From NCBI GenBank assembly GCA_017882545.1, contig JADGPG010000072.1, positions 1 to 64,000 on the forward strand: DNA of 64,000 nucleotides, read 5' to 3'. The translations under genes and the position numbers were made by a program. The first letter of the stretch is position 1; every line of letters starts with the position of its first letter. Below, piece by piece: positions 22,957 to 24,758 of the stretch. The notes below the pieces were generated by a model. That model worked only from the letters and a program-made list of their open reading frames with translations. It searched no databases and was not told where the DNA came from. The stretch comes from Thermoleophilia bacterium (GTDB lineage Bacteria > Actinomycetota > Thermoleophilia > Miltoncostaeales > Miltoncostaeaceae).

Positions 22957-23106
22957 ACAAGCTCCTGGTCGGCGTGTCCGACCCATCGTGGCAGACGCGC
23001 GCATGGCATCGCTCGCCACCGGCGACGTCGGTCGGGATGGGCCCCAGTGAGACCTGCCCCCTCTGCACCCACGCACGAGAAGTATTGTTCTGTGAGATAG
23101 CTACCT

Positions 23107-23232: not shown

Positions 23233-23991
23233 GTGACCAAGATGCCCCCGATGGAAGTTCGCCGCCGAACGACGTGGATCGCCGCTCTGGCAGTCGTCGG
23301 CGCCATGACCGGCAGTGCCGTGGCGTTCGGGCCCGGGGCGCCCAACCCGCGCGCCAATCTGCACGTCCGCCGAATGCCGTCGGCCTGCCGGACGCACCCC
23401 ACCGGAGCCGCCTGCGTAAACGCCGCTGTCTGGTATCTGGACCGGGACCGCGCCGCCCTGGGAAAGCCCCCCTATGCCCTGCCGGCGCGGTTCGTGTCCC
23501 TCGGTCCGGCCCGGCAGGCGTTCATCCTCGCCAACCTCGACCGCGTCGCCTATCGGCTTCCGCCCATCGCCGGCATGACCGTCGCCCTCGACCGCGACGC
23601 CCTCGCCGGCGCGCGCGCCAACACCGACCCGACCCCCAGCGGCAGCTTCTGGCAGGGGTTCACGGCCAACTTCGCCGCCGGCTACCCGAACATGGCCGCC
23701 GCCTACCAGGCCTGGATGTTCGATGACGGCCTCGGGTCCGGCAATGTCGACTGCTCGGTCCAACACCGCTCGGGCTGCTGGGGGCACCGGGAAGACGTGC
23801 TGTGGAACTTCGCGTCAGCGGGGTCTCCGACCCCCGGGTTGGCGATGGGTGCCGCGATGACGGGCACGCGCCAGTCGCTGCTGATCACCGCACGCTATGG
23901 AGGTCGGCTCCCCCATCTGGTCTATACGTGGGCGCAGGCCCGCGCGGCCGGGGCGGGTCGTCACGCCTACCGGGTCGCCGCACCGCGCTGA
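23233..23991 (+). CDS. Secreted hypothetical protein (CAP/SCP-like)
   Basis: Signal-like N-terminus; RQAFILANLDRVAYRLPPIAGMT... and CWGHREDVLWNF; leaderless-type -10 TATGAT 6 nt before GTG. Confidence 0.65.
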   Translation: MTKMPPMEVRRRTTWIAALAVVGAMTGSAVAFGPGAPNPRANLHVRRMPSACRTHPTGAACVNAAVWYLDRDRAALGKPPYALPARFVSLGPARQAFILANLDRVAYRLPPIAGMTVALDRDALAGARANTDPTPSGSFWQGFTANFAAGYPNMAAAYQAWMFDDGLGSGNVDCSVQHRSGCWGHREDVLWNFASAGSPTPGLAMGAAMTGTRQSLLITARYGGRLPHLVYTWAQARAAGAGRHAYRVAAPR

Positions 23992-24116
23992 CCTGATGTG
24001 GCAGGCTCCTGGCGGCCGCGGTTCTCACGCGGTCGGACCCATGGCCGCCCGGGGACTTTGCAACTTTGGCCACAAGGCCAAGGACCGGCGCGCAGGCTCG
24101 ACCTACGCTGCTGATC

Positions 24117-24215
24117 ATGTTCACGATTCCCACTGGCGCATTTACCCCGAGCATGCGGCGACTTCGTCGAACGATGGGTGAAATGCGCGCAATCAAAGCC
24201 TCATTCGGCCTCTAG
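24117..24215 (+). CDS. Candidate small protein (32 aa) MFTIPTGAFTPSMRRLRRTMGEMRAIKASFGL, or part of a small RNA
   Basis: ATG 7 nt after -10-like TACGCT (leaderless spacing); TAG followed by perfect hairpin and T6 terminator. Confidence 0.4.
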   Translation: MFTIPTGAFTPSMRRLRRTMGEMRAIKASFGL

Positions 24216-24219
24216 CTCC

Positions 24220-24255
24220 GACGCCGACACGCCGCGTCTGCGGCGTGTCGGCGTC
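24220..24255. repeat. 16-bp perfect hairpin
   Basis: GACGCCGACACGCCGC-GTCT-GCGGCGTGTCGGCGTC. Confidence 0.85.
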
Positions 24256-24299
24256 CGGGCAGCGCGACCTGCCACTCGCCGTCGGGGTCCGACGCAGCG

Positions 24300-24362
24300 G
24301 GTGATCGCGCACCTGGGCCCGACCGCGCACAGCGCGGACACAGCGCATCACCGTTTTTTCTT
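24300..24362 (+). terminator. Rho-independent terminator
   Basis: GGTGAT(C)GCGC...GCGCATCACC stem enclosing CCGCGC-ACA-GCGCGG, followed by GTTTTTTCTT. Confidence 0.7.
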
Positions 24363-24410
24363 AACGCTGCTCATATCGGGCATTCAGGGACGCGCGCAAC
24401 ACTGGTCTAC

Positions 24411-24758
24411 ATGAGAACCCCATCCAGTCGTCCCCAGCCAGAGCGTCCGTCCCACGTTGCGGGCGTTGTGCACCGCGAACGCGGCCTGCGTCACCTGCGC
24501 AAGGCGACGATCATGACGGTCGCAGCCGCGGCGCTGGTGACCGTGATCGGCACGAGCCTCGCCTCCCAACCGACGACGCACCACAGCGCGAGCGCCTCCG
24601 GCAGCGGCGGCGGTGTGGCGTCCAGCGCGGCCGCGATCGCCGCTGCCCAGCAGGCTGCCTCGAACCAGGCTTCGGCCTCGGATGGGAACGCCAGCGCGTC
24701 GGCCGCAATCCCGTCGGCGTCCCAGAGCACCCCGGTGGCGTCCTCCGGCGGGTCTTAG
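24411..24758 (+). CDS. Ser/Ala-rich single-TM protein, unknown function
   Basis: TM segment (TIMTVAAAALVTVIGTSLA) and low-complexity S/A/G-rich tail. Confidence 0.5.
   Translation: MRTPSSRPQPERPSHVAGVVHRERGLRHLRKATIMTVAAAALVTVIGTSLASQPTTHHSASASGSGGGVASSAAAIAAAQQAASNQASASDGNASASAAIPSASQSTPVASSGGS

Follow-up and report, generated by a model that had tools for sequence, protein, structure and literature searches.

A genuine, genus-restricted micro-gene of 32 codons is encoded on the plus strand at 24117–24215 of a 64-kb stretch of Thermoleophilia DNA (the window, i.e. the whole stretch analysed), where it is missed by ordinary gene finding. The promoter in front of it is predicted from its geometry to be leaderless and of the class II activator type, and it is very probable that this architecture of gene and promoter is real. 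The palindromic operator of the promoter is in all likelihood common to the micro-gene and the gene for glutamine synthetase III (GSIII), and the micro-gene probably belongs to a nitrogen regulon. This reading is built on conservation, a coding signal, the geometry of the promoter and the shared operator.

The micro-ORF begins with an ATG at 24117, ends with a TAG stop codon at 24213–24215 and encodes the peptide MFTIPTGAFTPSMRRLRRTMGEMRAIKASFGL in the window's genome (G000). A DNA search of 41 genomes gave matches in G003 (query bases 54–227) and G001 (query bases 117–208), and the G001 match corresponds to the ORF almost exactly. Of the other three genomes in the genus, two have a syntenic orthologue (88% and 77% identical); the peptides are MFTIPSGAFTPSIVRLRRTMGELRAIKASFGL in G003 and MFTIPSGTFSPSMFRLRRIMSEMRAIKTSFETPLA in G001. 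The conserved gene order comprises an SRPBCC protein, the micro-ORF, a 115-aa low-complexity gene, two membrane genes, Sua5 and an exonuclease. In the three orthologues on which comparisons of the micro-gene rest (G000, G003 and G001), variable columns are distributed 7/2/15 over the codon positions (Fisher p = 0.0008) and NG86 dN/dS is ~0.16–0.21; the start codon is kept and the stop codon nearly so. The initial annotation had described an ORF for a 32-aa micro-protein at this place, to be given up if neither peptide nor hairpins were conserved in relatives. The peptide and its frame are conserved, the dN/dS and codon bias agree with a coding gene, and the elements listed in that annotation are all found at the positions it gave.

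Searches beyond these orthologues were largely negative. G002 yielded no copy of the peptide, and its assembly is also without the neighbouring membrane gene. No micro-ORF was found at the corresponding position of other genera. A search of IMG/VR gave no match, and no Pfam family was matched by the peptide, a 32-aa query having low power. Matches within the order (best E 0.017) and the class (best E 7e-4) were weak and incomplete, most of them lying within longer frames, and they were not accepted as relatives.

The operator palindrome TTTGGCC-ACAA-GGCCAA (24065–24081, plus strand; inverted repeat TTGGCC-ACAA-GGCCAA at 24066–24081) is the proposed activator site. Its centre is ~43–44 nt upstream of the ATG, i.e. 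at about -43 if the transcription start is the A of the ATG. The form TTTGGCC-N4-GGCCAA is kept in all three orthologous loci, one base being different in G001 (TTCGGCC). In each copy a TAN3T -10 box follows 22–23 nt past the palindrome (TACGCT at 24104–24109 of the window's plus strand, TACCGT in G003 and TAATCT in G001), and the ATG is ~7 nt further on. GGCC and ATGTTCA are exactly 56 nt apart in 3/3 copies, with the intervening bases diverged. A two-fold symmetric site near -41.5 with ~22 nt to the -10 box is the layout of a class II promoter, and a -10 box ~7 nt before the ATG of a conserved coding frame is that of a leaderless gene; both are found here. The leaderless-type -10 box of the initial annotation is upheld by the conservation of the box, the ATG and their spacing, and its suggestion of an activator-dependent promoter without a -35 element gains support in so far as it was built on the inverted repeat, the palindrome and its spacing being kept in three copies. 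The ACTTTG direct repeats (24055–24060 and 24063–24068) that were also counted as part of the promoter do not share this support; the first of them is not conserved in the relatives.

Canonical NtcA promoters have a site centred at ~-41.5 plus a TAN3T box, and in a described case 22 nt separate the site from the box (PMC3898017). Like the class II promoters of NtcA, the CRP-family protein of nitrogen control in cyanobacteria, the promoter described here has a palindrome near -42 and no -35 element, ~22 nt to a TAN3T -10 box and a site shared with glutamine synthetase (PMC3898017). The site itself is different: it reads TTTGGCC-N4-GGCCAA and not the GTA-N8-TAC of the NtcA regulon. The micro-gene also resembles the leaderless genes of mycobacteria and other actinobacteria, in which a TANNNT -10 box is combined with an ATG that is translated with no Shine-Dalgarno leader before it (PMC8485053), although here an activator-type site takes the place of the -35 element and the start is predicted from sequence.

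The only other exact palindrome in the window's genome is upstream of GSIII, identified by Pfam (GSIII_N, 4e-74). Exact palindromes in G001 and G002 occupy the same position before GSIII, making three genomes in all. GSIII was not found in G003 (assembly 81% complete), and a palindrome at GSIII was not seen among the other genera parsed. Within the family the exact palindrome gave 18 strand-hits vs 1 for the reversed control, the sites including one upstream of amtB in G015; the amtB genes of G000 and G001 have no box close upstream. In four genomes of another genus the exact palindrome precedes a CP_ATPgrasp_2 gene, and a CP-ATP-grasp type 2 gene, PP_2688, is listed as one of the nitrogen-sensitive genes of P. 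putida (PMC8050072). A class-wide scan of 399 genomes for the composite of palindrome, 20–24 nt and TAN3T gave 12 hits vs 1 in the reversed control, all with gaps of 22–24. A TAN3T box was found at gap 22/23 in 8/19 oriented sites vs 0.04 expected, a count in which orthologues are not independent. Composite targets outside the family include an acetamidase/formamidase (FmdA_AmdA), a DmmA-like reductase, a Peptidase_S51 protein, a P450 and an MFS transporter, and in several of them the start codon comes directly after the -10 box. Other promoters show longer spacing. The -10 box of one ADH promoter is at gap 34, ~one helical turn beyond 22, and that of GSIII is at gap 54–55, ~three helical turns beyond 22 and further off than in the NtcA class II case. 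The locus had been called an orphan in the initial annotation; this needs qualification, as its promoter belongs to a set that includes GSIII.

Because the box precedes GSIII, amtB, CP-ATP-grasp and amidase genes, nitrogen appears to be the signal of the regulon, which we regard as somewhat favoured. Two further features were observed at sites of this set. In G041 (L152, ~1500–1740), a small protein containing Cys, MNQSNPDGHDGVWVPCGTCWGQRKLY..., has a leaderless-looking start directly after this palindrome. Immediately before GSIII, the leader AGCCATTTCGCCAGGAGGGAC (L030, L079 and L081, near 1700–1765) is identical in three diverged genomes and could be a translational control element; it has no Rfam match.

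A CRP/FNR-type regulator is a candidate for the activator at the palindrome. The TTGGC-N6-GCCAA core has the 5-6-5 spacing of CRP sites. A CRP-type protein with the helix LVGASREAVTT (LIGASREAVTT in genus g9) is conserved in 10/10 genomes checked (L173 on G000:C68, with orthologues L171, L172, L174, L175, L178, L179, L180, L185 and L186), and the near-invariant helix of this regulator reads LTHAQWASL[VI]GASREAVTT. In genus g9 the CRP-type helix is present and the exact box is absent, which counts against the assignment. The box is also absent upstream of the CRP-type gene itself.

Downstream of the micro-ORF there is a perfect 16-bp hairpin with a 4-nt loop (24220–24255, plus strand), starting 4 nt past the stop codon. 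As the initial annotation had pointed out, the stem is present and perfect; among the perfect hairpins of the 64 kb it is the longest, it is unique in the window, and no 16-bp stem occurred in 20 Markov-shuffled windows. The region folds at z = -3.9. The stem is without a U tract, and its sequence is not conserved, G003 having a different hairpin at that place and G001 none that is clear. The hairpin is a plausible terminator of the micro-gene, one of a U-less kind. A second, bulged stem (GGTGAT...ATCACC followed by T6; 24300–24359, plus strand) is a weak terminator candidate that lies immediately before the sequence upstream of the next gene. The T6 at 24354–24359 is the only such run on the plus strand of the window, which has no A6 run, so that the rarity ascribed to T6 runs holds. 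The stem does not stand out as a significant element: its folding does not surpass that of shuffles (z = -0.63), and it is absent in G003 and G001.

Several observations concern the surrounding DNA. At 24360–24410, upstream of the 115-aa gene at 24411, CTTAA[CT]GCT and the bases following it are conserved in G003 and G001, and this region looks like the promoter of that gene, the product of which is secreted or of low complexity, or like a regulator site. The SRPBCC gene is preceded by ACGAGAAGTATTGTTCTGTGA (23075–23095), in which all but one base is kept in G001 amid diverged flanking intergenic DNA; it contains an inverted repeat, AGAA-N6-TTCT, and is a candidate regulatory element. In G000 the micro-gene and the SRPBCC gene have between them a 252-aa protein (23233–23991) that looks secreted and matches no Pfam family; it was not seen at that place in G003 or G001.

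The conserved sequence could also act as RNA. A possible hairpin within the ORF (24136–24190, plus strand) has an outer stem GCGCATTTACCC / GGGTGAAATGCGC and an inner stem CGAC / GTCG. RNAalifold gave -19.6 for the ORF vs ~-11.5 for a synonymous null that keeps the proteins, the identity pattern and GC (p = 0.005–0.007, three sequences), in a structure test that was chosen after the fold had been seen. G000 and G003 differ at fewer synonymous sites than expected: 19/26 codons are the same vs 11.2 expected from neighbouring genes, and in codons 21–31 10/10 comparable synonymous positions are identical (P ~1.6e-5 from neighbouring genes). These results are what would be seen if the transcript were a dual-function or mainly regulatory RNA, acting, alone or alongside the peptide, through the ORF hairpin and the strongly conserved 3' third. 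Such an RNA would be comparable to the nitrogen-regulated sRNAs of the cyanobacterial NsiR4 type, as a short transcript under a would-be nitrogen-type promoter with a possible conserved hairpin. However, the conserved part here, unlike that of NsiR4-type sRNAs, is covered by a conserved ORF with its codon-position bias and frame kept, covarying pair counts in the hairpin do not clearly exceed shuffles (three sequences), and an Rfam search of the locus gave no match at gathering score. Pairing with the GSIII leader is likewise unconvincing: the energies computed for the whole duplex were uninformative, and a 9-nt match between GGUGAAAUG and CAUUUCGCC, noticed by eye, is interrupted in G003 and is therefore treated as chance. 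A role chiefly or additionally as RNA is rather unlikely. The sRNA alternative of the initial annotation gains modest support from the hairpin inside the ORF and none from the hairpins which that annotation listed.

Other readings keep parts of the evidence and interpret them differently. The micro-gene and its promoter could be real but serve a general or different regulon (e.g. energy or redox), the peptide being unrelated to nitrogen. CRP-family regulators often have mixed regulons, and targets such as the P450, MFS, ADH and glyoxalase-like genes would suit such a regulon, the P450, MFS and glyoxalase-like targets in the class being no obvious nitrogen genes; the over-representation of GSIII, amtB, CP-ATP-grasp and amidase in a dozen targets nevertheless makes this rather improbable. 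If the 16-bp hairpin were a switch, with the micro-ORF serving the gene at 24411 as a leader peptide or attenuator, the start of the hairpin so close to the stop codon would fit, but there is no run of regulatory codons, the hairpin sequence is not conserved and the 24411 gene has its own conserved upstream element, which leaves this reading very little weight. A frame can be read on the minus strand as well, with a TTG start and ~28–30 aa in G001 and G003. It is open in 3/3 genomes and has its wobble positions in common with the plus frame, so that the strand cannot be told from periodicity on its own. The plus strand is favoured because the start is kept, the stop is nearly kept, the substitutions are more conservative and the conserved promoter and ATG are read on it. 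The ends of the minus frame vary widely (103 aa in G000 vs short in G001 and G003), and that it is the conserved gene is extremely unlikely.

The peptide has a net charge of ~+5 and is predicted to form one helix (residues 11–29; mean pLDDT 79, pTM 0.39). Its hydrophobic moment is not clearly above that of shuffles. Small proteins that control glutamine synthetase are known, e.g. the 23-aa sP26 of Methanosarcina mazei and IF7/IF17 of cyanobacteria (PMC7760959). Like these (PMC7760959), the micro-gene is a small-protein gene, one probably tied to nitrogen control, here through an operator in common with a glutamine synthetase gene. The size of the peptide fits an sP26-like glutamine synthetase modulator (~20–35 aa), a complex with the enzyme being hypothetical. 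The setting differs in that the glutamine synthetase is of type III, the peptide, unlike IF7/IF17, has no family match in what is a low-power query, and gifA/gifB are repressed by NtcA whereas the promoter here looks activated. That the peptide acts on nitrogen assimilation is a tentative suggestion.

In the preferred model of an activator-driven leaderless micro-gene, an activator dimer would bind TTTGGCC-N4-GGCCAA at ~-43, the class II position, and, replacing a -35 element, would bring RNA polymerase to the TAN3T -10 box. Transcription would begin at or beside the A of the ATG to give a leaderless mRNA, and would probably stop at the 16-bp hairpin. Translation of the mRNA would yield the 32-aa cationic peptide, with a predicted flexible N-terminus and one helix. 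The micro-gene would most likely be switched by nitrogen status along with GSIII, because the same box precedes GSIII, amtB, CP-ATP-grasp and nitrogen-scavenging genes, and the peptide would most likely adjust nitrogen assimilation via a protein partner, e.g. glutamine synthetase or the ammonium-uptake machinery. We judge this model as a whole to be reasonably probable. A more specific version, in which Thermoleophilia have their own nitrogen control and a non-NtcA CRP-type activator at the palindrome drives, within this genus, a 32-aa micro-protein that tunes GSIII (possibly also an sRNA), is possible but on balance doubtful.

The Thermoleophilia are a large class with mostly uncultured members, and to our knowledge their nitrogen control is uncharacterised. 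The sharply defined operator with its fixed spacing to the -10 box provides a testable regulon, and promoter grammar of this kind can reveal micro-genes that are invisible to gene callers. The micro-gene may be a case of nitrogen assimilation controlled by a small protein beyond cyanobacteria and methanogens, and is probably a previously unknown part of nitrogen handling in these bacteria.
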